From NCBI RefSeq assembly GCF_029873635.1, contig NC_080420.1, positions 55,513,457 through 55,577,456 of the forward strand: DNA of 64,000 bases. Direction: 5' to 3'. The position numbers were made by a program, and so were the translations under genes. The notes under the pieces were generated by a model. The model was not told the DNA's origin and searched no databases. It saw only the letters and a list, made by a program, of their open reading frames with translations. Origin of the DNA: Malania oleifera (taxonomy: Eukaryota > Streptophyta > Magnoliopsida > Santalales > Ximeniaceae). Positions 24,927-58,745 of the stretch are shown in pieces. Numbering within the stretch: the stretch's first letter is position 1; every line of letters starts with the position of its first letter.

Positions 24927-27092
24927 TGTTGGAATTGGTGTGATCCCAAGAGGGGGGTGAATTGAGGTTTAAAACTTTTCAGCTAATTTAAAACATTTCA
25001 CCGATTCACCACGTATCATATCCCATTCAACATATATACGTGTGTGTGTAAAATGATTTTAACACTGAAAGCAAACATACACGTGCGCAGTATCTTATTT
25101 AAATCAAATGTGTGTATGAGAATAATTTTGATATTAAATAAACATTCATATACATGCTGAAATTAAAGTGCAGGAATTTAAATAAGATAGAAAGAGTGAC
25201 ACCAGATTTGTTATCGAGGTTCGGCCAAACTAGCCTACATCCCCACCTTGAGCATACCCCCAAGGATTCCACTATACTTGCTCACTTAACCGATGGTAGC
25301 AAAAGCCTTTTACATCCTCTCCTTACGGGGCGAGGCAAACCCCAGCTCAATTATTAGGCTGAGCCAAACTAGTCTTACTTATGGGGCTGAGACTCCCCAG
25401 TTCAATTCTGGGCTGAACCAAACCAGTCTTATTTACGGGGCTGAGACTCCTCAGTTCAATTCATGGGCTGAACCCAATCAATACATTAAAACTATTTTTG
25501 TACATGAAAATGCTTCTAAAAATACAAGTTGAGGTGTACACCTTTAAGCTCAAATAAATGCACTCTAATATGATATGCAATAATGCTCAGTAGAGTAAAG
25601 GGTTCTTACCTAAATAATATTTGCAGAAATGAAATGTATATGAAAAATGAGTATTATTGTTTTCCTATAAATATTTTTGCAAGTAAATAATATTTGGAGA
25701 AACTAGGAATTTTAAACTAAAAAGAATTTGTGCAATAAATAATTTTTCTTCCAAGAATATTTATCAAAGAAAGAACCGGGAGAAATGCAAGCAATACTCT
25801 CAAAGATTGATTTTCAAAAAGTAAATAACAAGTGAGAGTATATGCATGTAAATACAAATAAAATGCCCAAAATAAAATACTCTCTTTAAAAATGATTTTG
25901 AGATAAAACAAGTGAAAGAGAGTTGGAGAGATTTGTTTAAAATATTTTGCCCCAAAAGAATGATTTAAACAACAAAAACCTTTTTGGGGGAACTTTGATT
26001 AACAATAAATTAGAGAGAAGATTTGGGTTAATCAAAGTTGCTAATCTGGAGTTATGAGGGGGTGTTTATAGATTTTCAACAAATCTGACCGTTGAGGGAC
26101 ACGCTCGATATTTTGAAAAGGTTTAATTAAGTTTTAATGACGTTTTAGCACTTAAAAAATATTCCAACCCGAGAGCACCGGTCGACTAGGACAAGTTCGG
26201 TCAATCTAAGTTCTTGGGGTTCGGTTGACTGAGCCAAAAATGAACTGCTCATTCGATCGACCAGACATGTAAGTTTGAAGGTGATTTTTCAGTTTTGTGA
26301 GGTTCGGTCGATCGGGAATATTTGAACTAGATTTTTTGGTCAACCATGGCGTTAGGATGTCCCCCGAGGACCCTCGGTCGACCAGAGTGTTGGAGTACAT
26401 TTTGGGCTTGGTCGACCAGGTGGTCAAAAAGTGGACTCATAGGAGGTTCGGTCGACTGAGTGTATTTGAACTAAGTGAGTTCGGTCCGAATTCGGTCGAC
26501 CGAGAACTTTTGAGCTAGCAAGTTCGGTCAACCGAATCTGCACATTTAGTGCATTTCGGTCCTATTTTAAGCATTCAATCACCCATTTCAAATGATCATT
26601 CATATACGTGCATGAGTGAGTGTCTTAGGGTTATTTTTAGGTCCTTTTGAAGACACCGAAAAAATCCGGTGTCAGTCAACTGAAGTTTTCGTAAACTTTG
26701 TTTTAGCCCCGATTTTTACCCTAAAGCTATTCCAAAAACTTTGTATGATTTTAGTCTATTTAGAAAAATGTTTTTGGTGAGATGTGATGGTCCCTAGAGT
26801 CTATCTACGGTCGTTTTGAGCATTCAAACACATCATAAAGATGCATGCATTATTGCAAACCAAAGATATAGAAATTAAATGCAATTATAACAGATAAACG
26901 TCTTCTTCATCTTTTTGCTCTTTTGACTTCATGGAATGCGCTTGAGTGTATAGTCATTAAGTCTTGCAAGAATCTATCGCCGTTTCCTTATGTGTGTGTT
27001 AAATAAATGACCCTATTTACATGCTAAATACACACATAAGAAACATGTGCTTTGTCAGCATCAAAATAGAGATTAGACTCAAAAAGTCAACA
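24927..27092 (-). mobile_element. Solo copia LTR nested in the 3' LTR of D/F
   Basis: It starts TGTTGACTTTTTGAG at 27092 (minus) and ends CCAATTCCAACA at 24927. Flanks are ttaag (24922-24926) and ttagg (27093-27097). The paralogous LTR at 38130 reads straight through this point, giving an unoccupied-site comparison. GTCGAC-type motifs occupy 26175-26540. The array lies inward of the LTR start and upstream, in minus sense, of tataaac near 26066. It is the same family as the solo LTR 50199-52236. Confidence 0.87.
26175..26540 (-). promoter_or_regulatory. GTCGAC palindrome array in U3 of the solo copia LTR
   Basis: About eleven variants of cggtcgaccga lie at irregular spacing, including exact ggtcgac cores near 26180, 26377, 26411, 26448 and 26493. 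Proposed as promoter-proximal repeats from position only. Confidence 0.55.
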
Positions 27093-27414
27093 TTAGGGAA
27101 TCTTACAATATCAATGCAAAGACTCTAAAGCCAATGAGTTTTCCCACACAAGATTTATTTATTCAAATAAGTGGGAAAAACTCTAGCCTAACTCTCAAGA
27201 TAAAAATCAATTAACACAAATTTCAAATGAGAGTTAATGGCTATTTAAAATGGACCACAACTAATTTAAACACTCTTTCTAGGCTTGAATAATCAAGGAA
27301 TATGAAATAGGAGAGTATTTGGGAGTAGTATGAGCAAAATCAGATTGGAAAAATTTAGAGAGTTTTGCTTAATGATTTTTGCTAATCCACCCTTAATTAG
27401 GACAAATGAATGTG

Positions 27415-27905
27415 TATATATAGACAAGGGGGAAAAATTAGTCATTGGGGACATGCTGGTAACTTTAAAAAATGTTTTAATTATGCTTAAGAAAATTAAC
27501 CATGTTGAACTGCTCTTAACCGTTGTAAAAAATAAAATAACCCGAGAGTTTCGGGTGCCTGATCCATAGTTTGGTCGCCCGAACAGACACACTTAGAAAA
27601 GTTCTTTTTGAAGTTCTGGTGCTCGAATATGGGCTCGGTTTGCTAAACCAAAGGCGATTTCAAAAGACTGCGGTTTGGGTGCCAGGTCCTGAGTTCAGTT
27701 TGTTGAAATGCATGTATTCGGTAGCCTATGTTCGGGCTGTTGAGTTGGTGGGAAAAGTCACAATCAAGGTTCGGTCGCCCGTGAACGCTACGATCATATA
27801 GGTTCGGTCGCCCGAAGCCTAAGTCAAGTTTCTGATTTTTCCACAGTTCAGTCAACCGAGGCAAATATACTTGCCAAGTTTGGTCGCCCGAAACCTCATA
27901 GATTT
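27415..27905 (-). promoter_or_regulatory. TATA box and ggtcgcccgaac array, D/F 3' LTR
   Basis: TATATATA (27415-27422) reads the same in minus sense. Upstream of it in that sense are repeated variants of ttcgggcgaccgaac (plus: ggtcgcccgaac) near 27573, 27772, 27807 and 27884, plus weaker ones. Promoter function is inferred. Confidence 0.55.
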
Positions 27906-28216
27906 TGGGCTAAGGTCCTATATTCATGTGCATTCAAGTGTAGGGACCTAAGGGCCATTCTAGGGTCATCTGAGCTTACTTACTCTTACATGCATGATAT
28001 GCAGTGATTATTACAGACCCATTTGAAATGAAATTATTACAAACTCTATAATATTACAACAAATAATATATGTGTCGGAGTCTTCATATTTCTTCAAGTT
28101 GCTGCATGTTATAGATGTGATCCAACTTGGTATAATCCTGCACACAAACTTGATAGTCATCAAATACCAAGAGTATTTGTCATTATCAAAATCGGGAACG
28201 ATCTATAAGGTCAACA

Positions 28217-30304
28217 TTCTCCCCATTTTTTATGATTTCAAATACACCATGCAAAAGTGGGTACAACCAAGAAAGACTCTCCTTGACAATATGCATAATG
28301 TTAAAGATTTAATGGTGTAAACATTTTTCAAGTATCCAATTTTGCCTCTTCTCCCCCTTTTGGCAACAGCAAAAATGGCTATGATATATATAAAGTCATA
28401 GGCATTGAGTATAATTCATTTAGATACAAGATAGGTTTGGGAAACGTTTTAGAAATTTCAGTAGCATGCCATTTGAAAATAGAGCATTTTCCCAAAAATA
28501 CATGTATAGAATTGACCTGATTGAGTTTTAGATTAACAGTTTATCCACAACTACCAACTCGAACAGTCTAGTGTGATCAAGACATAAAATAGAAGTATAA
28601 CTTTCAATCATTCAAGAAATATAATAGCCATACAATGCAAAATGAATGACAAAGATAACCTCAGCAATTAAGCACACAAACAATAAAACTGATCATTTAA
28701 ATGATTTAAATGACATGAAAATAAGACTAGACCATAAATATACACAAACCATTGCAATTGAAACATATCATAAGACCCGTAGAAGATTTGAGTTTAAAGC
28801 ACACGACATATGATATCAAATAGTTGGTTTGAGTACAAACACAGTCTAACAAATTCGCATGCATTTACATGTGAAGTTATTGAACCATTTATGCAATTAA
28901 AAATATATGTATATAATAATAAATATATACCCCCCTTATGATATTTTCATGAAGTACTGGGGGTGCTTGCTAAAAAAGAAACTTTAATTTAAAACAAGCA
29001 AGCAACATTTTTCTAATTTGTCAATTAAGCACATACTAAAATATAACTAGAATGTGACAACCATATGGATCTTAATAATTTAACAAACAAATACAAGATC
29101 ATATGGTGACACAAGTGATAGTGGTAAACAACATATTTCACATTAAGATCTTCAATGAAGTCAATACATTTTAGCACATGCCACAAAAAGTATATCCAAG
29201 ATCTAAGCTAAACATATTGGTGAGCATATTAAGATGTCAGTATTGTCGTTCCTATAGGCCATAGATGCATAAGAGAATATATATCAAGGCATGCTATGTA
29301 GTTCATGACCCAAGAACATTCCATATCAAGTAATATTCAAGGATATTAGAAGAGCCTCAATATTTTGATACACGAAAGTGATGCATGAAGATCATTTATG
29401 CTTTTTCTATAAGGATTGAGCTTAGCTCCCCTAAACATTTTTGATAATTATGTAAGGATGAAATTTAATATTCAATTAGTTTTCACTCATATTTTCAAAA
29501 ATATTTTAACTTTTATTTTATTATAATAATCTTTAGACAAGGTTTTACTTGGGAAAATTCTAACAAAAATTCGGCAGCATGTCGTCTATAAATTGGATAT
29601 TTTCCCATAAAACATATTCCTGATAGGTTCATATAAGCAATTTATAGTTCAGTTCAAGGCACACGGGAACCTATATCTACTAATAGCATGCAATACACAT
29701 CAACTGCATCAGCCATGTAGGAGGCTTTCAATAACAAGCATGCAATCCAGTAGTAATCAACAATTCATAAATATAAAAACCATCCATAAAAAAAAATTAA
29801 TCATTCAGTACATTATGGATAGTAGTCTATAATGCTGATTTCATAAAGGCATATGAGCATAAAAGGTATAATATCAAGAGAGCATTTTAATTTATAAAAC
29901 CACGAAGAATAAAAGCTCCCCCTGAGTTATGCACTCAAATCATTTTATGTCTTTTTCATAATTTTCAAATTCTTTAGCAAAGTATTTTAATTTTTTCAAT
30001 GATTTAAACTTGGCGTTGAATGCTTTAGGCTTTAACGGACCAAAAAGTTAAAAGGAATATTCATTAAGATGATAAACCTATGTCTGCCTCTTTTCTTATG
30101 AATCTAATACATGTGAGAGACATAAGTTCAAATGGGTTTGAATTTTAAGGTTCATGCATAGGTTTCTATGAATTTTGTTCTATCATCTAGATTGAAACCT
30201 ATAACAATCATTTTTGCCTTTAAACTTATTCTGATCATGTGAAGCTCTAAATGATTTGATTGAAGTTTGAGAGCTTGGAGGAAAATTGAATACTCTTAAG
30301 AAAT
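28217..30304 (-). mobile_element. 3' noncoding spacer of gag-only copia element D/F
   Basis: The minus-strand spacer aligns with the plus-strand spacer of element E (about 34440-35540). Shared landmarks are tgcataactcagggggagc (29914-29934 here, 34802-34822 in E), gcatgcttgttattgaaagc and tggaatgttcttgggtcatg. A PPT-like run, CAAAAGGGGGAGAAGAGG, lies near 28345-28362 (minus). No open frame of size is present. The spacer stops at 30304, where element E begins in opposite orientation. Confidence 0.78.
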
Positions 30305-30599
30305 TGTTGACCTTATAGGTCACACCCAATTTTGATAATGACAAATACTTAGGTATTTAATGGTTTTCAAGTGTTTATGCAGGCTTAGATGAACATCCCA
30401 AGGAAGGACACTTGAAGCAACTAGATCACCCTGAAGACCTGTTATATTTGTAATCGTAAAGTCAATATTTGTAATATGGGTCTGTAAAAGAAACTTAGGA
30501 TGCGGTCTTTATTACCTTACCTGCACATAATGCATATTGGATATATTGTAAGCTCAAAATGACGGTAGAATGACCATAGGGGCTAAATGACCTTAGGGC

Positions 30600-31130
30600 A
30601 GTCGACCGACGCCGAATTTTTGGGACTATCTCAAAACGGCCCTTGAAAAGACCCTAGTAAGACCTTAGGTCCCAACACTCACACACATATCATATAATAT
30701 AAAGGAGTGTTGAATTTGTGCTTAAATTGAAAAATATTAGGGATTTTGTGAGAGCACGAGCGATCGAACCCTAGGAGTACAAAACTCCTCGGGCGCCCAA
30801 ATGTTGACAAGTCAACATGTTGACCAGGCTCTCGGGTGACCGACCTATAAATACACATACCTTCCCCGGGTGTTCGAACCCCTCGAAAGGGACATACCAC
30901 TTAATTGGGCGACCGAACTGTTTAGTTCAAAATGAGGCTCGGGCGACCGAACTCACGAGTTTGGGCCACCGAACGTTTGACCGGGCACCCGAAGTTATGA
31001 AGCTTTGCTACTAACTTTGATTCGGGTTGCCGAAGGGTAATACGGGCAACCAAACTATATTAAACTCCTTTTATTATTGAGTCAGGTCAGGCGATCGAAC
31101 TGAGGTTCAGCCACCTGAATCCCAGCTGGT
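30600..31130 (+). promoter_or_regulatory. Array of cgggcgaccgaac motifs in U3 of element E
   Basis: About a dozen variants lie at irregular spacing, e.g. near 30600 (gtcgaccgac), 30906 (gggcgaccgaac), 30941 (cgggcgaccgaac), 30964 and 31089. The array ends about 120 bp before the TATA box. Confidence 0.55.
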
Positions 31131-31247
31131 TAAAATTAATTTAACCATGGTAAAATAGGGTTAACTCGGACTAATTGAATTTTAATCATTTGGGACTTTT
31201 TTAATTATTCCCATTATATCCCAAATGGTTATATTTTTACCCCTGAC

Positions 31248-31255
31248 TATAAATA
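31248..31255 (+). promoter_or_regulatory. TATA box of LTR E
   Basis: TATAAATA in the middle of the LTR, downstream of the motif array and about 1.1 kb before the LTR end. A standard core promoter position for a 2-kb LTR. Confidence 0.6.
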
Positions 31256-32381
31256 TGAGTTCATTTGCATGATTAAGGTGAGATTAGCAAATTGATTAGC
31301 CAAAATATTCTCTCTTTTCAAAATACTCTTTTTGGCTAAATACTCTCAAAATCTCCACTTCCTTGATATATTTTGAGATTGTGAGAACATTTTTAGAGTG
31401 TTTGTGATTGCTATAGATTGCTAGAAACTCCCATTTGTTTGATTAATTGTTATATTTTTATTGGGGAGTTTTAGCTTAGGTTTATCCTACAGATTTGCTC
31501 ATTATAAATCTTGTGTGAGGATAAACCAAGTAAGCTTAGGATATTTGCATCTTTGTTGCAAGTGTTTAATAGCTAGATTTTTGTTGTGCAAAGATTTCTC
31601 AAACAAACAAGCAAGTATTTTCAAACTAGTATTGTGCATCTTTCATTGAGGAAAATCTTATTGAACTAGTTTGATTATCTAATTAGTATACTTGGAATAT
31701 TGATGTGCTATTGAAATACCTTGTTTAGATTCCAAGATATTGCTTGTGTTGAATACTTTTAAGCATCATTCTGATTATATTGCGATTGAGTGTTGTTTGC
31801 ACAAAACTAGCATCACTGAACTTACACTATATCCATATCATTGATGTGTATGTGAATGTGCATATTTGGGTACATATCTGCTTTACGTGAAAGCACTATT
31901 TTTATACCATCTGTTTGAGCGAATACTATTATATTTCCAGGCGTGGCCTGTGGGGGTGGTAATGTAGCCCGGTAAGGATTGTGTAGGTTGAGGTCAGCCC
32001 TGTGTTAATTGACCTAGTTGTAAAGGTTGAGTTCAGCCCTGTGCTAATTAACCTGGTTTGTTTAGGTGCCGCTCCACCCATTTATGTGAGCAATTATAGT
32101 GGTAATCCTTGTAGTTGTTAGCCAAGTCGGGGACGTAGGCACAGTTGGCTGAACCTCGATAACATATCGTGTATGTACTTTATATTCTTCACATTTTACA
32201 TTTTTACAAGTGTATGTTATAATGCACGATTTAATTTTCGCATATTATCTGTGCATTTGGGTGTGTATATATAGAAATACCCTAGGTTGAGAAATACTGT
32301 TGTTGGTTTAGCTAAACTTAGGTGATTAATTTTTAAATACCCAATTCACCCCCCTCTTGGGAATACACCAAAGCTATCAAT

Positions 32382-32394
32382 TAGTATCAGAGCC
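32382..32394 (+). other. Primer binding site of element E (initiator-Met tRNA type)
   Basis: TAGTATCAGAGCC lies two bases after the LTR end and differs from the iMet site TGGTATCAGAGCC by one base. Confidence 0.8.
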
Positions 32395-32435
32395 TCGTTG
32401 CACTAGACTTAAACGTTTTTTGCAAAAAGATCGCA

Positions 32436-35540: not shown

Positions 35541-35877
35541 GGTAAGTAGAGTTGATTAATCAGAGTATGCTTAACGCTAGATTTTCATAATTAAGTATGA
35601 GTTAAGCATTTAAAATTAAATACTAGAAAAACATGCCAAGTCCATTTGGAAGTGGATTTTAATTAAGCTATAGCCAATGATTTCATCTTTAACCGATGAA
35701 TATATGCATTAAGTTCAGATTTGTTATATACTTGGATTTGTAGATTGACTTGATTCTCAAATGATCTTAGTATACTAAAGGTGGAATGAATATGCTAAGA
35801 TTTGACATTTTAGTGATGAACCACTTTGTAGGCCAATAGACATCACTCCCCCAAAACCTAGAACCTAAGGAAAGCAT
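35541..35877 (-). mobile_element. Start of the noncoding spacer after gag D
   Basis: On the minus strand this follows the gag stop directly. It contains cacttccaaatggac, then ttctagtatttaa and ttaactcatac, parallel to E at about 33810-33870. It breaks off at the tail-to-tail junction with E. Confidence 0.75.
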
Positions 35878-37217: not shown

Positions 37218-37260
37218 GATCTTTTTACTAACTAACTGTTAAGTCTAAGTGACAGGGTTT

Positions 37261-37270
37261 TGATACCAAT
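37261..37270 (-). other. PBS of element D/F
   Basis: On the minus strand the bases after the LTR end read TTGGTATCA, the initiator-Met tRNA site. Confidence 0.7.
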
Positions 37271-38446
37271 TGTTAGCTTTGGTTCAATCCCAAAAGGGGG
37301 GAGGGTGAATTGGAGATTTAAAAATTTCCTCCTAGGTTCAACTAATCTAACAACATTATTACTCAACCTAGGGGTAGACTAAATGTATATGAAATTGTAG
37401 ATATGATATATTAATCACCTTTCAGTGCATAAAACACAATTCTAGTATTTCCCAATCAATATACAATATATTCAGCAAGAAAAATAAATCAAGTAGAGAG
37501 TAGAAGATAATGTAGGAAATATAAAAGCAACATCGAATATGATATCAGGGTTCGGTCAATACTGCTTACATCCCTGCCTTAGCTTACTAGCATGAGGATT
37601 CCACTATAATGCTCACTTGACGGGTGGAGCGGCACAGATTACAACCAGATCAATTAATGAGGCTGACCTCAACCTACACCTTACCGGGATGGTGCACCTA
37701 GCTTTCCTAACCGGGTCTAAGTTAATCCGGGACTATTCAACAGGATTAGTCTCCCTCTTTAGCCACATGCCTGGAATACAAAGGATATAAAGATTTGCAT
37801 ACAAACAAATGCTTCTTACCTAAGCAGACTATGTACTACAATTCAGTACAATATAATCAATGCACACCAATGATGTAAGAACTATAAGCTCAATGGTGTA
37901 TATGTGCAAACAACATTTAGTATAATGTATAATCTCAAATATGCATAAGAGTGTTCAAACAAGCTATTCTTTGAAACAAGATATACTAAATTTCAATGTC
38001 AGATTAGGGTTTCAAAGATGCTAGCAAAAATATTCAAACAAACTCAAAAATATTTTTCGATGTAGCAAGCACAAGAGTTTTTTGAAATCAAGCTTGTAAA
38101 AATATTTTGCACACAAAAATATTGCTTAAGTAATCTTGCAATATCAATGCAAAGACCCTAAAGCCAATGAGTTTTCCCACACAAGATTTATTTATTCAAA
38201 TTAATGGGAAAAACTCTAGCCTAACTCTCAAGATAAAAATCAATCAACACAAATTTCAAATGAGAGTTAAGGGCTATTTAAAATGGACCACAAATAATTT
38301 AAACACTCTCTCTAAGCTTGAATAATCAAGGAATATGAAGTAGGAGAGTATTTGGGAGTAGTATGACCAAAATAGGATTGGAAAAATTTAGAGAGTTTTT
38401 GCTTAATGATTTTTGCTAATCCACCTTTAATCAGAACAAATGAATG

Positions 38447-38454
38447 TATATATA
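38447..38454 (-). promoter_or_regulatory. TATA box of D/F 5' LTR
   Basis: TATATATA, matching 27415-27422 in the partner LTR. The ggtcgcccgaac-type array lies at 38600-38960. Confidence 0.5.
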
Positions 38455-38588
38455 CAGACAAAGGGGAAAAATTAGCCGTTGGGGACACGTTGGTAATTTT
38501 AAAAAATGTTTTAATTATGCTTAAGAAAATTAACCATGTTTAACTGCTCTTAACCTTGGTAAAAAATAAAGCAACCCAAGAGTTTTGG

Positions 38589-38716
38589 GTGCTCGATCCA
38601 TAGTTTGGTCGCCCGAACAAACACACTCAAAAAAGTTCTTTTTGAAGTTCAGGTGCTCGATCCATAGTTTGGTCGCCCAAACAAACACACTCAAAAAAGT
38701 TCTTTTTGAAGTTCAG
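38589..38716. repeat. 64-bp tandem duplication in the D/F 5' LTR motif array
   Basis: The segment beginning gtgctcgatccatagtttgg is present twice (38589 and 38653), and a third partial start lies at 38717. The partner LTR has one copy (about 27558). The duplication also doubles one ggtcgcc(c)gaac motif. Confidence 0.88.
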
Positions 38717-39068
38717 GTGCTCGAATATGGGCTCGGTTTGCTGAACCAAAGGCGATTTCAAAAGACCACAATTTGGATGCTAGGTCCTGAGTTCAGTTTG
38801 TTGAACACATGTATTCGGTAGCCTGAGGCAAATTTGAACGTGATGTTCGGGCTGTTGAGTTGGTGGGAAAAGTCATAATCAAGGTTCAGTTGCCCGTGAA
38901 TGCTACGATCATTTAGGTTCGGTCACCTGAAGCCTAAGTCAACTTTCTTACTTTTCCACGGTTCGGTCGACTAAGGCAAATATACTTGCCAAGTTTGTTT
39001 GCCCAAAACCTCATGGATTTTGGGCTAAGGTCCTATATTCATGTGCATTTAAGTGTAGGGACCTAACG

Positions 39069-40983
39069 TGTAGTGACTTGAAGAATAATGTTATTCAAAT
39101 AATTAAGAGGGAGAGAAATGGAAGCAGTAACAGAAGGAGGTAGCAAAGTTCGTCGACGACATTGCATTTTGAATATAATAACCCCAAAAATTTTCCAAGC
39201 ACTCGTTGACAAACACAGGGGTTTCGTCGACGAGGGTTCTTCAAGACCTTGTCGATGAGGACCCGTTTTGTCGATGAGAAGATACCGAGAAAGGATTATT
39301 GGGATATCTGAAATTTGTCGATGAGGGGGTAGGTTCATCGATGAACTTTTTATAGGACTCGTCGACGAGGTGACGTGGCTCGTTGACGAATCCCGCAGTA
39401 TAAATAGCCCTAAACTCAGTTAATCGCAGAAAAAACGATGACAAACCTTCTCCTTTCTCTCTCCTATGGCCTCCCCTCCATCTCTCTTCGATTTCGGCCC
39501 TATCAGTTGTTGGATCGACAATCTGAGGCCACCACGATGCTCCTGGCGGAGTTCTTTTTAAGTCTGTTGGTGCGGATCGTCAGTGGGATTGAGTCGAGTT
39601 TCTCCCTAGAATCAGGGTAAGTTCTTTTATTCAGTTTTTGACCTTCTGGTAGTTGTTCAAAATGATGTAGGCTAGGAAATATTGATATTTGGTTATGAAA
39701 AATGTGATTTTCAGGGTGTGGAATAGGAAACCCTGTGGGTGTAGGACCAATATACGATGGGGGCTTTTCAACAGTTTGGTAAGGGAAACATGCTATGCTA
39801 GGAAAACCTAGTATGATTTCAGTATGAAGTTTATGTTTTACCAGATTATTATTCAGAGCAGAAATTTATGCAATTTATTATTGACGTTAAAATATTTTAA
39901 ATTATGGTGTGGCATAAGAGTATGAAAATAGTATAGAAACATGTTTTTACAGCATTTTCAGGAATATGTTTTACAGAATATACAGACAATGAAATGCTTT
40001 TACAGTATCTTTCAGAATACCATGATTTTACAATTTTATAGTACCATAATAGGTAGATTTACAGTGTATCTCAGAGAAATACAGTTGATATAGTTACAGA
40101 ATATTAAAGTATCATGGTAAAATAGTTGGTGTATATAGAAACATATTATATTGTATCATACCTTGATGGATCAGACAGTAGAGCACGATACTGTAGCTAT
40201 AGATATACAGATATTCAATTCAGAGTGCAACCACTTAACTCAGATAGTAAGTGGTATGAGGTCGATCGTGCCTAGTTGTGGACAGGCTCCCCATCAGATA
40301 TGGGTTGAGGAGGGCTGATCTGACCGATGAGTAGAGTGGTTTACCCTGGTCGGCCAGCCATGATAGATCCAGCCTTCGGGCCGCACAACCCTGTCATGAG
40401 GGGTTAAATCATGACATACAACCATCTAGGGAAATATTCTCAGATATTATGGTATTATCAGATTTTTTTCGAAATAGTATTATTATTATGAAAAGTAATT
40501 TCATACAGTTTGACATGTTAAATTATATAGCTAAAGGTTTTATAATATGTTATGTAGTATCAACATTTTCAGTTTTAGTTATTTGTACTACTCTTAACTC
40601 GGATTAATTTTTATAGATCCACATCTTAGTAGCCACACACTAGTGATAGCATGTTTCGTCTTACTGAGCTTTGGCTCATCCTAGTGTTGAATTATTTTTC
40701 AAGTGAGCCAGTTGGGCGAGCCAAGCAGACTCGCAGATAGAGGAGCTATTAGTCTACCCTTTTTGAGGGTGAGTGTTTTTGGGATTCAATTTTGTTAGTC
40801 CTAGTAGTAGTAAGAGTAGTTCTTAAGAGTACAGTGAAATATGTAATATTTGTGTAATATTTAGACACTCTGGTATTGTATTATTATATATGGTTATGTT
40901 TATTTGACTTCCACTTCTCGATGCTTAGGTTGATGGTTGAAAAAAAAAAAAAAAAAAACCCTAGTTAAATAGTAGGTTGTTAC
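39069..40983 (+). mobile_element. Solo gypsy LTR inserted in the D/F 5' LTR
   Basis: It starts TGTAGTGACTTGAAG and ends near GTAGGTTGTTAC. The partner LTR at 27948 reads acctaagggcc without the insert; here acctaa and ttaagggcc flank it, so the TSD is imperfect by a base or two. Content: TCGTCGACGA array (39149-39390), TATAAATA (39399-39406), GGTAAG sites (about 39615, 39778), the GCACGATACTGTAGC core (40182-40196) and the ccagccttcgggccgcac block (about 40370). A near-pure A run of 19 lies at about 40940-40958. It is the same family as 43362-45418 and 56755-58826. Confidence 0.85.
39149..39406 (+). promoter_or_regulatory. TCGTCGACGA array and TATA box (solo LTR 39069)
   Basis: About nine variants of TCGTYGAYGA occur, with perfect palindromes TCGTCGACGA near 39150, 39224 and 39360. 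The last copy lies within 20 bp of TATAAATA (39399-39406). Confidence 0.6.
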
Positions 40984-42716: not shown

Positions 42717-42761
42717 TTAGATATTTATATAAATTCTAATTAATATTTGCTATAATCCCTC

Positions 42762-42773
42762 TCTAATACCAAT
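42762..42773 (-). other. PBS of element C/G
   Basis: On the minus strand the LTR end is followed by TTGGTATTAGAG, the initiator-Met tRNA site with one change. Confidence 0.75.
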
Positions 42774-43361: not shown

Positions 43362-45418
43362 TGTAACATCCTGCTAAATTAATTGAGATTTCCCCTACTT
43401 TTCTTAATAATAATTACTGTGAAATTCCACTGCTCTGATACCAAATTGTAACGTTCTGCTAATAAATAAAATCTTTTCTCCTATTTTAATATCAAAACAT
43501 TAACCTAAATAGCGGGAAGCCACATACATAAACATAACCACATAAGTTACAATACCAGAGTGTCTAAATATCTCATAAATTATACAAAAATCACTGTTTT
43601 TCTCAAAACTATTCCCTACTGAAGTCGGGGCATACAAAAATACTACCCAAAAATACTACTCACCCTTAACAAGGTAGACTAACAACCCCTATACCTGCGA
43701 GCCTGATCCACTTGCCTAACTGGTTCACCGGAAAAATAATTCAACATTGGGGTCAGTCGACGCTCAGTAAGACGAAACATGTTATTACTAGTGTGTGGCT
43801 ACTGAGTTATATTTCTGTGTAAATAATCTGATTTAAAAATAATATCATGGATAACTGAAATTGTAAATGCTAGTATAAATAACATATATTAAAACTATAT
43901 AAATTTATTTTTCATAATACTACCACTATTTCTAGAAATCTACTTATACTTATTATATCTGAGAAAATTTTCGTGGATGGCTGTATGTCATGATTTAACC
44001 CCTCATGATAGGGTTGTGCTACCCGAAGGAGAGACCTATCTTGGCTGGTTGACCAGGGTAAGTCAACTAAGCTCCGACAGTCTGATCGACCCCCTTAATC
44101 CATATCTGATGGAGAGCTTATCCCGAACTGGGCACGATCGACCTCATACCACTTATTGTTTGAGTAAAGTGGTTACACTCTGAATTGAATGTCTGTAGCT
44201 ACGGTATCGTCCTCTACTGAATCTGATCCATCTAGGTTTGATACTATATAGGTAGCTGATATCTTTAACATACTGTTTTACCATGATCTCTGAATAACCA
44301 TAACCCCATAGAATTTATTTGAAATTCTAAATTAACTAACTGAAAAAATGATTTCTGTATAACTGAACTGTTGTCTGTATAACTAAATATTGGGGCATTA
44401 TGGTACTGAAAAGCTGATTATTCTAAAATTACTGAGAATATATTTTTCAGAGTATAATGTATACTGAAATTCTTTTATTCTATAAGCGTATAAATATCAT
44501 GGTATTTCTATTTATAAACTGTAAACATGGTATTCATGGTTTGTATAAATATGGTACTGTACTCTAATCAACTCAAGCCACACTAATAAATATTATTATA
44601 ACTAGGCTCTGAAAACCGTATATATAATTTGAATAATAATTTGATAATAACCTATATTTTGTACTGAAATCATACCTAGCATAACATGTTTCCCTTACCT
44701 GATTACTGGAAAGCCCTAACTATCCGCAAGGTTTCCCACTCAACTCCCTAAAACCAACATTCACCAGAACAAAACATCATTATTTCTTTGTCTACTTCAT
44801 TTTCTACAACTGCTGGAAAGCTTAATTTCGAATAAAAGACCTTACCTTGAACCTCGGGAGAAAATCAACTCAATCCCACCGACGATCCACCCCAGTAAAC
44901 TTGGAGAGAATTTCACCAGGAGCATCGTGGTGGCCTCAAATCGTCGATTTGACGACTAATAGGGCTGAAATCGAAGAGAGATGGAGGAGAGGCTGTAGAG
45001 AGAGAAGAGAGAGAGAGTTTTTGTTGAAAATCCTGCATAAAAATCTTAGGGTTACACTATTTATACTGCGGCCTTCTTCGACGAGCCACGTCATCTCATC
45101 GACGAGTCTAAGAAGCAATTCATCGATGAACTCTCCCCTTCGTCGAAAAAATTCAGAATCGCCCAAAACATCCTTTCGGTATCTTCTCGTTGATGAAACG
45201 TGCCTTCGTCGATGAGACCCTTTTGTACCCTTTTCGACGAATCCCATGTGTTTGTCGACAAGGCCATGAGAAAATTCCTTGGGTTATTACATCCAAAAGT
45301 GCAATGTTGTCAACAAACGCGAAGCATTCGTCCACGAAGTCGGCTGCCTCCTTCTGTTACTGTTTCCATTTCCCTCCCTCTTTATTATTTAAATACCATT
45401 ATTCTTTAGGTCATTACA
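43362..45418 (-). mobile_element. Solo gypsy LTR inserted in the 5' LTR of C/G
   Basis: It starts TGTAATGACCTAAAG at 45418 (minus) and ends GCAGGATGTTACA at 43362. Perfect 5-bp TSD taata is at 43357-43361 and 45419-45423. The partner LTR at about 21437 reads ttaataagt without an insert. It contains the TCGTCGACGA-type array, TATAAATA, the GACGATACCGTAGCT core (44196-44210) and two GGTAAGG sites (plus ccttacc near 44694 and 44841). Confidence 0.93.
45058..45350 (-). promoter_or_regulatory. TATA box and TCGTCGACGA-type array (solo LTR 43362)
   Basis: TATAAATA in minus sense lies at 45058-45065. About nine TCGTYGAYGA variants follow upstream in that sense (45068-45340). Confidence 0.6.
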
Positions 45419-50060: not shown

Positions 50061-50198
50061 CACCAGCGTGATCATCGCTATTCCTAGGGTCCATCATGAA
50101 AATAGAACAACATAATCTTAGAATCCAAACTCCATAACATGACTAATACATTAATCTAATTGAGAACCTTATATAACCCATTAACCTAACGTCCTTAT
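50061..50198 (-). pseudogene. Leader end and first codons of gag, gypsy element B
   Basis: On the minus strand the leader continues after the solo LTR (50199-52236) and reaches ATGATGGACCC at 50097. The short open start, MMDPRNSDDHAGD, is plausible for a gypsy gag N-terminus but too short for a homology claim. It is lost at the junction with LTR J. Confidence 0.4.
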
Positions 50199-52236
50199 TG
50201 TTAACTTTGGTGCAATCCCAAGAGGGGGGTGAATTGGATATTTAAAAATTTCTTCCTAGGTCAAACAGTCTAACAATAGTATTATGCAACCTAGGGTCTG
50301 TCTATGCAATTTTATATCCAATCGTTCACAATAAAACATACACGTGCGGTAAATAAATTGCGAAAAAGTAAATTGCACACACAATATGTTATCGAGGTTC
50401 AGCCAAAGTGCCTACGTCCTTGCCTTAGCTCACCAACACAAGGCTATAAGCTCACTTCACGGGTGGAGCGGCACTGGTTACAACTAGGTCAATTAACGAG
50501 GTTGACCTCAACCTACAACTACACCTTACTAGGATGGTGCACCTAACTTTCCTAACCGGGTCTAAGCCAATCCGAGACTATTCAATAGGGCTAGTCTCCC
50601 TCTTCAGGCCCACGCTTGGAATACAAAAAATATTTAATATAAATTTTGCGTATACGGAAATATGCTTCTCAACAAGCAGATATGTACCACAATATAGTCC
50701 AAATAATGATGCAAGCACAGATGATAGTAAATATGCTTAGTGCTTAATAATGTGTGCTAAACACTCAATCTAATGTAAATATACAATCAAGATCTATAGT
50801 GTCTTTCCAAGCAAACTTTGAAACAAATAATCAATGTAAATCAATCACCACAAGTTTCAAAGTATTTCAACAAGTATATTCAAAATATCTCAAATATGAT
50901 TTTCTAAAAAATAATAGCTCAAGAGATATTTGAAAAAATATGTAAGCTTGTGATAAAATATTTTTTTCAAATCAAAATACACAAGCTTGATGAGTCTTGC
51001 AACAAAAATGCAAAGACTCACTAGTTATGAAGATTTTTCCCACACAAAGATTTATTAGTTAAATCGGGGGAAAAATCCTAGCTAAAAACTCTCAATAAGA
51101 AATAACAATCAAAGTATGACAGAGAGAGTTTTAGCAATATGAATCACTCAATAACACTCTTAGAAAGTTGGATTTCTCAAAGGAATAGCAAAAAGTGAGT
51201 GTATGGGCTTAGTATGAGAAATATATGCTCTTTGAAAAACAGAAGATTTTTGGCCAATCAAATATATGAATCCAATCCTTAATTTTTGCAAATGAAGCCA
51301 TATATATAGACTTGGCCAAAATTATAGCAGTTGGGGAAAGATTAATTGAGTTTAATAAAAAATATCCCAGTTTAACCTCAGTAAAATTTGAGCAACCTGA
51401 GAGATTTGGTCGACCACTTTTAAGGTTCGGTCAACTGGGGTGCTCAGTTCAGTCAACCGGGAAGAATTTAATCTACGAGGATGGTCGACCAATCAAAGGT
51501 GATTTTGAACCCTCTGAGATTCGGTTAATCAAAATAAGTTCGATTGATCGAACTTTATACACTTTGGTCGACCAAGTCCTTTTGTACCCGGAGGTTCGGT
51601 CGACCAAAGCGTTGGGACTTCCCACGTGTCCATTCGGTGGGCCAGGACGTTGGTATTCATTTTAGGACGGTCAACCAAGTGGTCAACAATTTGACCCTGG
51701 GAAGGTTCGGTCGACCGAAGAACTCTGAGCATTGGAGTTCGGTCAACCGAACATGCCAACACTGTGTATTTCGGTCCTATTCCTTTTATGAAATTGTCCC
51801 TAAACACATGATACTTAATTCTAAGACAATAGGGGACTTTTTCATTCAAAACTTTGGGTCCTATGGCTGATCTAAGGCCTTTGAGCATTAAGTCCAAAAA
51901 AATCTGACGTCGGTCGACCGAAACCGTCTTGTGGTTCCCTATGGTCAAACTATGGTCATTGAGCATATAAGCCTATCATGCATGAGATGCAATTATTATA
52001 GACCATATAAGATACAGACCCAAATAAATTAAACAATAAATAAATGGGCTTCATCTCCATATGGTTGTTCGGCCTCTTTGCTATTCCAATGCCATGGTTT
52101 ATGTGATCATTGTGGTCCTTATGGCTTCCTTGCTCCCTCACCATCTATGCGTGCTAAAAGTAAGTTCCTGTTCATAAGCTCAGTGCACAGGTAAGATAGT
52201 CATAATCAAAATGAGATAGGACTAAAAAAGTCAACA
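50199..52236 (-). mobile_element. Solo copia LTR in the leader of gypsy element B
   Basis: It starts TGTTGACTTTTTTAG at 52236 (minus) and ends ACCAAAGTTAACA at 50199. Perfect TSD cttat is at 50194-50198 and 52237-52241. It is the same family as 24927-27092. GGTCGACC motifs occupy 51405-51920 and TATATATA lies at 51301-51308 (minus sense). No internal sequence is attached. Confidence 0.93.
51301..51920 (-). promoter_or_regulatory. TATA box and GGTCGACC array (solo LTR 50199)
   Basis: Exact GGTCGACC cores lie near 51407, 51482, 51566, 51597, 51707 and 51911. Several one-base variants (ggtcaacc) lie between them. TATATATA (51301-51308) is about 100 bp from the nearest core. Confidence 0.6.
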
Positions 52237-52531
52237 CTTATTCTCAATTTAAGGTTTAGCCCTGCAATTTAGAAACAAAACCCAATGATAGTTTACCATA
52301 GTTTTCTTGAAATCGTCATTGTAGAAAAATCATAGAAACCACCACAAAGTTCCTACCTCCAAACTGCGAAACAAAATCCTAAATTATTATCTTAACTTCC
52401 AACATTTACTTACTAAAATCTTGATCTACTCATTTCCTGTCTTCTTCAAGATCTATTCCTAAACTCTGGTATTGTTTTCCGTAGTGCACTAAAGTCTACA
52501 GATTCTAACAACCTAAGCTTTGATACCACAA
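52237..52531 (-). mobile_element. PBS and leader of gypsy element B
   Basis: TGGTATCAAAGC (minus, 52517-52528) is an initiator-Met-type PBS three bases after the LTR end. The leader matches 7162-7440 in element A. Confidence 0.78.
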
Positions 52532-53135
52532 TGTAATGCCCCAAAAATTCTGGCTATATTATTTTTTTTTCCATTTTACTTAATAAACTCTGATACCACA
52601 AACTGTAAACAAAGTCAACTCAGACCCAAAGTGGTTTACCAAGGATATACTTGTTCATAAATACATATCAACTGTGCAGCGAAAAACATGATATACCTAA
52701 ACCTTATACACAATACTAGAATCCTACTAACTTCATAATTATACATATACATCTCCAAAAATCCATAGAAATATTCTAAGGACTCACACAAAATCCCTCT
52801 TCCAACTCAAACACTTACCTTGCGGCTAGGGCTGTACTAAAACCTCCTCTATCTCGGAGCTTGCTCCGCTCGTCTATATGAGTTTCTTGAAATGTTTGAA
52901 TTATGGGGTGAGACACCTCTCAGTAAGTGGGATAGATTAGCATCAGTATGTGGCACATGAGTTCTATTGTGTTACTAACATATACGGTACTGTGCTATGA
53001 AACTAAACTAAGTCATCCAGGTTCTGCTATCATATAGTACATTTCATAAATAACTGTAATATAACTGTTTCACGGTTCCGTGTAAAATTTGTCATAATAA
53101 TGTTTCTGAATAAACTGTTATAAATATATCTAGTC

Positions 53136-53236
53136 ATGACATCTAGGCCGGTTGAAATATCACGGCATCTGGACCGACTGAATTATCACGGCATCTGGAT
53201 CGATTGAATTATCACGGCATCTGGGGCGGCGAAATT
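53136..53236 (-). repeat. 26-bp minisatellite in LTR B
   Basis: Three units of atcacggcatctggaycgay plus six bases lie at 53159-53184, 53185-53210 and 53211-53236. A decayed unit precedes them (about 53136). Confidence 0.88.
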
Positions 53237-53937
53237 ATCACAATATACTAGAAATATCATAAGTTCTGTACTGTTTATAGATTTTCTAAAAATTCATTAT
53301 AAAAACATGCTTGTTCTGTGTAACCATAAAATACTTTGACATGCTAATATATGCAATAAAGTCTTTATACTCATGCCACACAAGTGAGTGCTATTCTATA
53401 ATATGCTGACTTTTTGGGGAGATTATATTTTTTGAAAAATAATAATAAATCTGTTTCAAGGGTTTTCTCAGTTCAAACATCAGACTTGCCAAAAACTTAC
53501 ATTAATTCATATATACAATTTTTGAATAAAATACTATATTTTAAATGGTAAACTTTTTGAAAATACCTGACATAATCTATCCCCTTACCTATTTCCTGGA
53601 ACTATGCCTGCAGGGAATCCAATATTATGCCCGCGGCGCCCGCACAAAACTTGCATCCATAAACCCTAATTCAATCAAATTAACCCTAGAATAACAGCCA
53701 TTCAACATTCCTACACCCACATATTACCAATTATTAACTAAAATTTTAAAAATAACCTCCTTACCCTTATTTTGGAGTGGTGCCTGAAATGCCCAATTCA
53801 CAAAAGTACTCTGGTTAAATTGCATAGAATCGCCACCGGGATCTTGAAATCACGTTTATCAGCTGATTCGGGCTGAGATCAGGTGAGAAATCGAGGAGAG
53901 AAGGAGGGAGAGCCGCAACCCTTGATGTGTGTGTGTC

Positions 53938-53951
<14 letters not shown>

Positions 53952-54002
<51 letters not shown>
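53952..54002. repeat. (GA)n microsatellite
   Basis: A pure GA tract with a GT stretch before it (about 53924-53950); CT in the sense of LTR B. Confidence 0.95.
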
Positions 54003-54008
<6 letters not shown>

Positions 54009-54249
54009 ATTTCCTTTAAAAAATGAGCTGCAGGACCTCACATATAAACTATTGCCAAACAAAACCGTCAATGGTTTGGCTTTTAACCAAACCTTTTCAC
54101 CATTTTACCTTTAACAGTGCCACTGTAATTACAAAACTGTCGATGGTTTTCTACTCCCCCACCAAACCATCGACGGTTTGGTCTGCACCAAACCAAATTC
54201 CTTCTTTTCCTTTGTTTTTGTTATTATTCCTATTTTTCAGGTCTCTACA

Positions 54250-54360
54250 TGGAGGGCCGTAAGTTTAACCTTTCTACTCAATACATTTGCAACTTAGTTT
54301 ATAGGCTTTTGCTTGAAGAAGAAATTAAATTCTACTAAGACTTCTTTTTGATGAACCTCA
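54250..54360 (-). pseudogene. Gypsy pol relic M, RNase H end (continues from 63246)
   Basis: The minus strand encodes VLVEFNFFFKQKP followed after a stop by VANVLSRK, the end of RNase H in many plant gypsy elements. It is the continuation of 63246-64000 across element L. The TSD cctca at 54356-54360 and 63241-63245 proves the split. LTR B cuts it at 54249. Confidence 0.8.
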
Positions 54361-55160
54361 TGACTCACTCAAAAAATGAGCAGCTCGGAAGCTATCCCAA
54401 ATATAGGAGTTCAGTCGTATACTAGTTAGCCCAAGGGCCAGATCGTCTCTTCCAGGAATGCAGTTTAATTCCAAATTTTGTGTAATTCAAAAAGAAATTA
54501 AAACAGGACAAATTATTGAACATAATTCAGATTCGGTTTTTAGGAATTTTGAGATTTTTGCAAGGAAACTTAAACTTAATCTAAAAATTAAACATGCAAG
54601 AAGATAACTAAATGAACGCCGGATTCAATACCAGAATAAAGAAGTAAGTAAACCCTGCAATCATCCAATTGAATAAAAATTCTAACTTTAAGTACAAGCC
54701 GAAACAAGATTAAATCCTAACAAGATAGAACCACTAACTTTAATGATAAAAACACCTAAGAACGATTTAAATTCTAATAAAAACTCCAAATAAGAGAAAC
54801 AATTGATTTTTTATAATAAACAATAACCCAAATGAATATTTAAGATTCAAAAGGGAACTTAAAAAAAAAAAAAGACAATCTAAACTCAATAATTCAAAAT
54901 AACTCAACCAAATTGAAATTCCAACAATGACTTTGAATAAAAAAAAAAGACAAATAAATATAACCCAATCAAAACAAATAAACTTAGTACCTTAACAACT
55001 TCAATGGAAAATAATAAACTAAAACAAATAATAACTAAGATTTTGAAGAAACTGGAATTAAAAATAAATACAATCCAATAACTATTAAAATTCCAAAGAA
55101 ATACTTTAAATAAACAAAACTGAAATTATCATTAAAAATAACTTGAACAAGTATTAAAGA

Positions 55161-55231
<71 letters not shown>

Positions 55232-55956
55232 GAGAGAGAGAGAGAGAGGAGAGAGGAGAGATGAGAGGAGAGAGAGAGAGAGAGAGAGAGGGGAAGAGAG
55301 AGAGAGAGAGAGAGAGATGAGGTCGAAGGAGGCAGGCTTCACGGCTACACAGCTACTGCCCAAAAAGAACCCCTTTTGTTCTCGCACAACTCCCCACACA
55401 AAGGCTCTCCTCCTCCCAAAGAAAACTTAGCTACCCAAAAGAAAAACTACAAAAGCCTACCAAACCCTACATGCCTCTCTCTCTAAAGAAACTTGCCCTT
55501 CCTTTAAATTCAATACCCAGTGCCTCTTTGTTGCATAGGCGGGTCAAATCAAGGGTATATGGGTTTTTTTTTTCTTTTTTTCTATTCATCTCAATTCGGC
55601 TCCAGTTACCCTTAACTTTCAACCCAATTTTGACCTTCCTACAGCTCGTAGCTCTCAAACTCAAAGCACAAAAGTTGTATAGCATCTTCTTGGATTTCCA
55701 CAACATTTTGAATCATCTTGATTAGAACTCACATGAGGGAGTTATACCCAGATTACGAAGTAATGTCGATTTTAATGTCCATAAATTACCCTGTAATAAT
55801 AAAATACCAAAAATTCACAAATTATTGAATAAAAATCCAAATATTATAAATTGAGTGCAATGTTAAAATATTGAACATAATTAGGTACTTAATTAAAATT
55901 ATAATTTTTAATGCATGAATTTAAACGCCTAATTACGCAACTTTGACGCGTAATCA
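54361..55956 (-). mobile_element. 3' LTR of element L
   Basis: 1.6 kb. It aligns with 61754-63240 along its whole length. The main length difference is in the GA tract (55165-55320 here, 62563-62612 in the partner). Confidence 0.92.
55165..55320. repeat. Long (GA)n tract in 3' LTR of L
   Basis: About 155 bp of GA with scattered GG interruptions. The partner LTR has only about 50 bp. Confidence 0.95.
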
Positions 55957-56754
55957 CACTCCCCAACTAAAGTTTTGCTAGTCCCTAGGAAATAATAAAA
56001 AAAAACAAAGAAAACTCCCAAATCCTATCTACCTCTTCTTTCGCGGGAAACACAACTACATTTACCAAATGCAATAAGGCTTTAAACCCTTAGGTCAATC
56101 CTAGTGGATGAGTTGTAGTCTCGTGAAGGTTTCCAGGGTGACATCCACAAACACCAATTCCAATGAATATTAAATGAATGCACATGCAACACAAATACAC
56201 CATTTCACCTATAGGAATATCACCAGATTACACACAAGCTCGTTCATACACAATTCACGCAACTCTGAGGCAAGTTATTCATGCAAGTTTTATCATTATA
56301 TAGCCATTAAAAATAGTATACTCACATAGATTTAACCGGTAATTACAATTTAGAGTTAATGTAGTCGTATAAATTCAAGCATAAATAGGCAAATCTCGAG
56401 GCATGTGTAATGTGCGTAACTCGTCACACCCAAGATACCAGTGGATACCTACAGAACGATCATTTTGACTCGGCCTAATTGGTATACCCTAAAAAACACT
56501 CAAAAAGGATGAGTTCACTTGTCATATGTAAGGAGGAGTGTCATGATCAAACATCCCACATATTGCAAGGAACAACGCTAAATGTACGGAGTGAACTAGT
56601 ATGAAAAGGATCCAGCCTATTTGTGAGGTGTCGGGTCCTTCACCCTATCATCTTCTCACCTACTTGCTATGTCCAACCAAGACCACCCTAGATCAACTTA
56701 TTCACAAACTAGGTGTGAATACATCTGAAGCATTAGGCGATTGAAGAGTCTTTA
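55957..56754 (-). mobile_element. PPT and distal interior of element L
   Basis: TTTAGTTGGGGAGTG (minus, 55957-55971) immediately precedes the 3' LTR and is the PPT. The rest is noncoding, with no frame resembling pol. A similar purine block, TTTAGTTGGGGGGG, is repeated near 59611-59630. Confidence 0.7.
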
Positions 56755-57724
56755 TGTAATGACCTACTTAATTTATCATATAGATTTTTTTCCCACATAA
56801 TATCCTTATAAACCATCCACCTGGACCCAAGGGTACCAAGGGTAACCTGAAATTCAACACCATTACCTAAGCAACAAGAAACGTGAAATCATATACAATC
56901 AGAATACCATACAACCCAATACCAGAGTTTACTACAACCGTCATTTAATATACACATCTCAAAAATATCCAAAATAGTCCTAGGATCGCTACCCAAAAAT
57001 CCGTCTGAGCCTAACAAGTACTTACCCTTTAGGTAAGGCAGGACTACCAAACGCTAGCACTGTGGAGCTTTATCTGCTCTTCTATCTGGGGCTCCTGAAA
57101 CGTCATATAAGTTGGGGCAAGACACCTCTCAGTAAGGGAAGATAAACTAATACCAGTGTGTGGCAACATGAGTATTTCCGTGTTATACATATAATCATAC
57201 ATAACCATACTTGGTACAATTATCTATTTCATATATGGGAAAAACATGTATATAATCATATCATGGTGGAATATACTGAATTTCCATAAACATATTTCAT
57301 CTCACATAATAATAATACAAAAACACCTTGGAAGGTTAGCTGGCTGGTGTCATGTATTACCCCCACATGACTGGGTTGTGCGGCCTGAAGGCGGGATCCG
57401 ACAACGGTTGGCCGACCACTGCCGAATCAAAAGCAAAAGTCTGTAAGTACAATGGGTATGCCTCTACTAGTCCATACACCAAGGGCGCCAACACTACACT
57501 AACCACATCGACTACCATTCTCCCGCTGCCCCGTACGGCTAGCGGTTACACTAACATATCATGATTGTGATCATATAACTACGGTACCGTGCTCGTGTAA
57601 GCCTAAACCAAGCCAACCAGGTTATGATAACATATAACATATTTCCAAATTGTGATACATGATTATTTCATAATAATAATTATCAAATCAATATCATCAT
57701 ATCATTTCATAACATAATATGAAA

Positions 57725-57960
57725 ATCTTCGGCCCTTACGCTGGCATTTCGTATTTTATCAATCATGGCCCGTACGCCGTATCACATGTCAGATAAAATC
57801 CTCGGCCTATACGCTGACATATCATATAAGAGGCTCAACCTGTACACCAGCATATCATATAAGAAAACCCTTGGCCTGTACATCGGTATATTATATAAAT
57901 GGCTCAGCCCGTACGCCGACATATCATATAAAAACTCTTGGCCCGTACGCTGGTGTATTA
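57725..57960 (-). repeat. Minisatellite in solo LTR 56755
   Basis: About six units of roughly 34-37 bp contain ggcccgtacgcyggyatatc and atataa. Because the period is near a multiple of three, a spurious frame with repeated ISYK peptides appears. Confidence 0.85.
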
Positions 57961-58538
57961 TAGTAAAACTTTGTATCATTTAACATTTTCCTAGAAAATA
58001 GTAAATCATAATAAATTCTACTCATGCCACACAAAATGGGTATTACACATATTTAAAACATATCATTATTTACAGCAGTATTTTCCCAAACATAATGCTA
58101 ATATATATGCTATAAAATTATACATATATTTTTCATGAAAACAACTAGCTTAGTTTATCCCCTTACCTGATTCCTGAAGAGCCCCTAAAATATACCAGTC
58201 TTGCACTCGCAGGGTTCCCTGTTCAACACCTTGAAACCAACATCTCTTAGAACAAAACTTTAGTATTTTCTTGACTACTACAATTTCTACAACTACAGGA
58301 AAGTCAAATACTAAATAAAATGCCTTACCCTAAACTTGGGATGAAATCCAAGCTAGCCCCACCGACAATCCACTCTAACAGACTTGTAAAGAACTTCCCC
58401 AAGAGTGTCGTGGCGACTTTGGATCATTGATCTAGCGAAAAACAGACCCAGAAACTTAGAGAGAAGGGTGGGAAACCGAAGTGGAGAGATAAAGAGAGGT
58501 TTGTGCGTGAAATTTAAGCCAAAAATGAAGTTTAAACC

Positions 58539-58745
58539 TATTTATACACTGGCCTTCGTTGACGAGTCACATCACTACGTAGACGAGGTCAAGAAGAAAA
58601 TTCATCGACGAATACTTACCCTCACCGACGAAATTCAGAACTGAGCTATATCCTCTTGGTATGTTCTCATCAACGAGACATGTCCCCATCGACGAGCCCC
58701 TCATATGTGCTCGTTGACGAATCCCTTGTGTTCGTCGATGAGACC
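58539..58745 (-). promoter_or_regulatory. TATA box and TCGTCGACGA-type array (solo LTR 56755)
   Basis: TATAAATA in minus sense lies at 58539-58546. About eight variants of TCGTYGAYGA (e.g. near 58557, 58603, 58689, 58733) lie upstream of it in that sense. Confidence 0.6.

Follow-up and report, generated by a model that had tools for sequence, protein, structure and literature searches.

The 64-kb window analysed here (the whole stretch G000:C4:55513457-55577456, on contig NC_080420.1 of Malania oleifera, in a genome of 1.49 Gb and 510 contigs) contains long terminal repeats (LTRs) of copia and gypsy (Ty3) retrotransposons. Their U3 regions carry arrays of short, CpG-bearing palindromes built around GTCGAC. 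The arrays lie where the original prediction had placed them, upstream of a TATA box in both superfamilies, and their units occur far above the level of dinucleotide shuffles (Table 1).

Palindrome arrays upstream of TATA in two superfamilies

Window counts were controlled with five dinucleotide shuffles and genome-wide counts with the reversed pattern. Within the window, GTTCGGTCGACCGAAC at up to four mismatches gave 25 matches against 0-1 in shuffles; 24 begin inside copia intervals named in the original prediction and the remaining one starts 1 bp beyond the end of 38600-38960. The gypsy unit TTCGTCGACGAA, allowing two mismatches, gave 16 matches (0-1 in shuffles), of which 14 fall in three gypsy arrays and the other two at 5366 and 51564. 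Across the whole genome the same gypsy 12-mer has 171,286 matches at up to one mismatch and its reverse 2,314; the corresponding counts are 43,179 and 153 for the copia 16-mer at up to two mismatches, 3,249 and 1 for the exact copia 14-mer, and 34,465 and 2,922 for AACCGTCGACGGTT at up to two mismatches.

The enrichment was also assessed in an arbitrary sample of 17 loci of 4 kb each (68 kb), taken at round coordinates fixed before inspection. When all 1,024 palindromic 10-mers were ranked at up to one mismatch in this sample, CGGTCGACCG (18 against 0.12 expected), TCGTCGACGA (19 against 0.24) and TGGTCGACCA (15 against 0.87) were outranked by only two TA repeats; these microsatellites, first in the ranking, were set aside as simple repeats, which leaves GTCGAC-centred palindromes at the top. 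The order is unchanged in the window, with 13 against 0.06, 13 against 0.15 and 11 against 0.68, respectively. Among 6-bp palindromes GTCGAC itself shows the highest enrichment in both sequence sets (9.0 and 8.7 fold; 30 sites in the sample against 3.3 expected). Of its 51 sites there, 40 fall within arrays, and arrays with at least three matches were present at 5 of the 17 arbitrary loci.

A motif-free test, in which perfect 10-bp palindromes in each interval were compared with 300 shuffles, gave mixed results. The interval 51405-51920 holds five against 0.47, a count reached by none of the 300 shuffles, 26175-26540 holds three (2/300) and 39149-39390 four (1/300); 45068-45340, with two, is weaker (12/300). 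None was found at 27545-27895, 38600-38960 or 58556-58745, and the single one at 30600-31130 is unexceptional (114/300). For 12-mers with one unpaired position, 30600-31130 becomes strong (eight; 0/300), the arrays at 27545 and 38600 are borderline (15/300 and 23/300) and 58556-58745 is not significant (73/300). The AACCGTYGACGGTT array at 54050-54190 reaches significance in neither form of the test (47/300 and 55/300). These results fit old copies with decayed palindromes, together with a copia unit whose centre is asymmetric. Scans of the window with Rfam at its gathering threshold and for tRNAs returned no matches.

The gypsy arrays belong to elements of Ty3 type. A copy elsewhere in the genome, L036, has Retrotrans_gag, RVP_2, RVT_1, RT_RNaseH, Integrase_H2C2 and SH3_Tf2-1 domains in separate open reading frame (ORF) pieces, in the Ty3 order, and LTRs that begin with TGTAA; its match to the Pfam Chromo model (E 0.019, 15.3 bits) is below the cut-off of 25.1. 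The LTR is about 2.0 kb long, as judged by 27 of 29 other copies that stay similar to copy L018 from the LTR start to about that point, and the array occupies positions of about 80-345 with ten units at up to four mismatches. A TATA box begins 8 bp beyond the end of the array in 27 of 30 copies, in the window copies at 45 kb and 58 kb (w45 and w58) and, by its positions, in that at 39 kb (w39). In the second gypsy family, with unit AACCGTCGACGGTT, 40 matches include two same-strand pairs 7.2-7.3 kb apart, and a Ty3-type gag and protease lie between the members of one of them. Elsewhere in the genome, at G000:C6:62047449-62048714, the gypsy U3 of 53960-54300 has three matches that lie 499 bp apart on one strand and score identically; this is apparently a tandem array made from a piece of an LTR promoter.

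The copia arrays were compared with a homologous element outside the window, L074, which carries Retrotran_gag_2, gag_pre-integrs, SH3_retrovirus and RVT_2 in separate ORF pieces. Its LTRs, of about 1.83 kb, are 88% alike over 1.4 kb and 84% over another 0.3 kb; the array starts about 370 bp into the LTR, with nine and seven unit matches in the two LTRs at up to five mismatches, and is followed by TATATA. Of the three copia types originally proposed, type 1 (51405 and 26175) stands as a separate, symmetric unit. Types 2 (27545 and 38600) and 3 (30754) are a single oriented, centrally asymmetric unit read from opposite strands, the type 2 elements being on the minus strand: GGGCGACC has the same element orientation in all 14 scored units (four, three and seven). 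LTR homology pairs the TATA boxes at 38454 (minus) and 31248 (plus), although TATAAATA is also present within the type 3 array, at 30846.

The predicted closeness of the array end to the TATA box holds for gypsy, at 8 bp. It does not hold for copia type 1, where the last unit lies 95-188 bp from the TATA box in 19 of 20 copies, one copy has none within 300 bp, and the array at 26175-26540 has no TATAWAW at all within about 500 bp. Taken as a whole, the earlier interpretation is partly supported.

Table 1. Palindrome arrays in the window, with strand and neighbouring promoter features
Position	Strand	Feature	TATA box and remarks
51405..51923	-	copia (Sirevirus-like) U3 array, symmetric unit GTTCGGTCGACCGAAC	TATA minus strand ~51302-51308; homologous element L074
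26175..26540	.	copia array, symmetric unit GTTCGGTCGACCGAAC, older or different subfamily	TATAWAW none within ~500 bp
27545..27895	-	copia array, asymmetric unit GGGCGACC (element orientation)	TATA minus strand ~27416-27422; LTR homologous to 38126-39066
38600..38976	-	copia array, asymmetric-unit family, second copy	TATA minus strand ~38448-38454
30754..31100	+	copia array, asymmetric unit, element orientation as at 27545/38600	TATA plus strand 31248; primer-binding-site-like TATCAGAG at 32385, adjoining copia gag
39149..39390	+	gypsy U3 array, unit TTCGTCGACGAA	TATA 39399, 8 bp past last unit
45074..45338	-	gypsy U3 array	TATA minus strand 45065, 8 bp past last unit
58555..58742	-	gypsy U3 array, decayed, another subfamily	TATA minus strand 58546, 8 bp past last unit
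54063..54178	-	second gypsy family, unit AACCGTCGACGGTT, 3 units	TATA-like TATATG ~54043, then CT-rich leader
5027..5142	+	sparse units resembling those at 54063	putative LTR; CT-rich leader follows
		intact unit sequences	GGTCGACC, CGTCGACG, CCGTCGACGG

Outside the arrays, three ORF pieces on the minus strand at 8212-9496 of the window match pentatricopeptide repeats and probably represent a gene of that class or a broken copy of one.

Divergence and decay of the units

Between subfamilies, the units change less than the spacers that separate them, as functional sites would, and the effect is weaker in copia. To define the gypsy units, six genome copies alone were used and the window copy under comparison was left out; differences were then counted at non-CpG sites. 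Significance was judged by Fisher's test and by circular shifts, in comparisons that share sequences and are thus not independent. Between w39 and L008 (L-numbers denote copies elsewhere in the genome) one of 53 unit sites differs against 42 of 125 spacer sites (Fisher p 4.9e-7; none of 177 circular shifts gave a unit count as low). The corresponding values are 3/53 and 44/125 against L018 (3/177 shifts), 2/53 and 41/125 against w45 (0/177) and 5/48 and 46/109 against w58 (0/156). Within a gypsy subfamily, units and spacers do not differ in this way (2/59 against 5/129 for w45 and L008; 3/59 against 7/129 and 1/52 against 6/126 for the other pairs). An earlier run, in which the six aligned copies that supplied the units included those of the window, left the picture unchanged. 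Counted by alignment column over 30 gypsy copies, again at non-CpG sites, the values are 0.040 for units, 0.074 for spacers and 0.108 beyond the array; this count is partly circular in that units were picked by their likeness.

For copia, the central 10 bp of the units differ between L044 and L074 at 3 of 37 sites against 43 of 129 in spacers (p 0.0013). In all, four type 1 copies were compared with L044 in this way, giving 3/37, 3/37, 6/37 and 5/37, with 36-46 of 129 in spacers (p 0.0013 to 0.038). Three pairs within copia subfamilies showed no significant difference between units and spacers (p 0.11 to 0.72). The pattern in these alignments fits units that would have been needed while a lineage was active and that then drifted neutrally after insertion.

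The arrays are CpG-rich, in support of the original prediction: the observed-to-expected ratio of CpG is 1.55 in the gypsy array but 0.61 over the remainder of that LTR, and 0.97 in the copia array against 0.39 in its flanks. At CpG sites of gypsy units 62% are still CG and 34% are TG or CA; outside the units, in the same first 720 bp of the LTR, the figures are 58% and 36%. Protection of the unit CpGs from decay is unsupported by this difference; the unit CpGs have decayed about like the others, and the gypsy copies have therefore not been spared methylation-type decay. Among 13 scored copia centres, 11 mix CG with TG and/or CA, as independent decay predicts, and two are fixed as TG or CA.

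The decayed copia centre, as at 51405-51920 of the window, reads TTGACC, the W-box word of WRKY factors. In 20 copia arrays (L054-L073, at about 1500-1900) TTGACY occurs at 13.75 per kb, about 13-fold denser than in the flanks (1.07) and against 1.15 in arbitrary sequence, with 59 of its 110 occurrences inside GGTTGACY. Decay of the central CpG thus turns many copia units into W-box words, which are candidate sites. Genome-wide, on the two strands, CGGTTGACC was found 33,197 times against 4,165 for its reverse and the exact 14-mer TTCGGTTGACCGAA 2,148 times against 151. Gypsy arrays contain no TTGACY; they gain TGACG, with 8.2 per kb compared with 0.5 elsewhere in the LTR.

Proposed promoter sites and alternative explanations

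We consider it probable, from sequence comparison, that the arrays are clusters of dimeric, CpG-bearing sites in U3 which would serve as upstream activating sequences, those of copia being RM boxes (the palindromic LTR units described for Sireviruses) and those of Ty3 having evolved separately. What was observed directly is their position, their copy number, their genome-wide enrichment and, between subfamilies, units that diverge less than the spacers do. A dimeric protein site in an enhancer is the best reading of the unit because it is a gapless palindrome, is repeated before the TATA box and is itself conserved. Each unit would bind a homodimeric host factor, and many units together might sum to a strong LTR promoter. 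Since the CpG sits at the dyad, it is plausible that its methylation blocks binding, so that new copies would be active until methylated; after silencing the units would decay neutrally, chiefly through loss of CpG.

Several observations weigh against this interpretation, beginning with the shared sequences among the comparisons. Contrasts with w58, the most decayed copy, are weaker (against L008, 6/48 in units and 33/110 in spacers, p 0.013, 10/157 shifts; against L018, 8/48 and 36/110, 10/157 shifts), and the earlier run was weakest for w45 and w58 (10/53 and 40/114). For full 16-bp copia units the contrast is weaker too, with p values between 0.0043 and 0.26 over the ten type 1 copies compared with L044, a copy in which four of the 11 units are absent or truncated. 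Local duplication or conversion that spread units would also lower their divergence. Near-palindromic 12-mers are enriched outside the array as well, over the initial 50 bp of the gypsy LTR (28 against 7.6) and in a second, A+T-rich zone at 750-850, downstream of the promoter (L006-L035).

The folding energies of the arrays point the same way, and bear on the rather unlikely alternative that the palindromes act as RNA, U3 lying at the 3' end of the transcript, where pairing between units might form hairpins that feed small RNAs or a step of replication. Five segments from arrays gave folding z-scores of -2.80, -1.09, -3.77, -2.17 and -3.26, against 0.44 and -0.88 in two non-array segments, and in maize small RNAs are in excess on Sirevirus palindromes (as cited in the available part of PMC10760457). 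However, any palindrome array gives low folding energy, RNA stems would need units that pair with one another rather than units that are individually gapless palindromes, and the asymmetric copia units all hold one orientation (14/14). Unconstrained turnover, in which slippage or conversion during reverse transcription creates functionless units and multiplies them, would account for units that are repeated at irregular spacing, and copying would keep them alike. We regard it as improbable, since the two gypsy subfamilies keep the spacings 21, 25, 19, 47, 20, 24 and 21 while their spacers differ at about one-third of non-CpG sites; therefore the units were not copied with their surroundings. 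One hexamer core common to three families of two superfamilies also speaks against turnover.

That common GTCGAC hexamer is what would be expected had recombination or template switching carried part of a U3 from one superfamily to the other, or had both inherited a common LTR, and the original prediction had left convergence and exchange side by side while assuming no common LTR ancestry. A self-comparison of the window (at least 80 bp, E up to 1e-10) gave no match between copia and gypsy LTRs, which speaks against exchange or shared origin. In favour of it, and at odds with the assumption, are LTR trees that group the chromovirus part of Metaviridae with Pseudoviridae (PMC3601003, in its accessible part, where the chromovirus model was built from Sushi elements of fish and fungi). 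The hexamer flanks differ by family (CG-GTCGAC-CG, TC-GTCGAC-GA and CC-GTCGAC-GG), as do the spacings (21, 55, 21, 25, 19, 47, 20, 24 and 21 in gypsy; 22, 72, 19, 24, 32, 38, 33, 41, 32 and 124 in copia) and the distances to TATA given above. With these features all family-specific, convergence appears to fit better, and exchange or shared origin seems highly improbable.

A bolder version of the promoter-site interpretation, which we put forward only tentatively and think on balance doubtful, is that one host factor or close paralogues, active only at an unmethylated GTCGAC site, drove the convergence of the two superfamilies and of at least two gypsy families. Silencing would then have made W-boxes of copia units and TGACG words of gypsy units, scattering tens of thousands of potential stress-factor sites. 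The shared hexamer speaks for a single factor. One strict binding specificity is harder to square with the differing flanks and with a copia centre that is asymmetric. The arrays name a concrete bait sequence for such a host factor, and they offer a countable route from silenced elements to sites resembling those of stress regulators.

Comparison with known LTR palindromes

The copia arrays match the RM boxes of Sireviruses, described in 2010 (Bousios et al., PMC2829016), and are not new; nor is the methylation idea for copia, which that paper already holds. In its available sections each RM box is a palindrome with a CGG-CCG core; an element carries eight or more of them, rich in CpG and upstream of TATA, starting 200-400 bp into the LTR. 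The grape Sirevirus box, CGGTCGACCG, forms the core of the copia type 1 unit found here. L074 shares the Sirevirus primer-binding site, CA-ATTTG-TATCAGAGC, with an exact nonamer and one change in the 5-bp gap relative to the published CA/ATTGG rule. L074 is an old copy. Of the several polypurine tract copies AGGGGGAG described for Sireviruses, it has one exact octamer, some 0.5 kb before the 3' LTR, and three near matches; the terminal one, AAGGGGAG-AA-TG, departs from the Sirevirus rule of AT/TG at that place. Copia types 2 and 3 differ from the published boxes in their oriented, centrally asymmetric unit.

The chromovirus-type gypsy LTRs have the Sirevirus plan, with many palindromic, CpG-bearing U3 units ending before TATA, and use other units. 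Among the matches listed in searches of the open-licence literature we found no description of palindrome arrays in gypsy or chromovirus elements, or of palindromic motifs in Ty3 LTRs, although an earlier description elsewhere is possible; the parts of PMC6911290, PMC11656987 and PMC11963269 available to us contain none, and a search for the palindrome sequences as text gave no retrotransposon paper among the matches listed. The gypsy half of the finding, and the signs of selection on palindromes in both superfamilies, thus look new. In maize, the Sirevirus palindromes CACCGGACNNNGTCCGGTG are likewise clustered in the cis-regulatory regions of copia LTRs and have RNA-folding potential, and Ty3 elements are reported, in the accessible part of that study, to be generally without an obvious peak of such structure (Martin 2023, PMC10760457). 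Here, in contrast, the Ty3 unit is very frequent, at about four sites for each copia site by the genome-wide counts above, with patterns that differ in length and stringency.

Outside plants, the CpG-centred cAMP-response element (CRE) palindrome in LTRs of mouse intracisternal A-particle elements is a close parallel, in that its methylation has been shown to block the activator CREB1 (PMC9729108, as excerpted); that system is an animal endogenous retrovirus with a known factor, whereas the present arrays are known from their sequence. RM boxes have been reported as a peculiarity of Sireviruses, being called specific to them among the Ty1/copia elements compared in the available text of PMC2829016, and the occurrence of the same plan in Ty3 chromovirus-type LTRs suggests that it may be a general promoter solution for elements living under host methylation.

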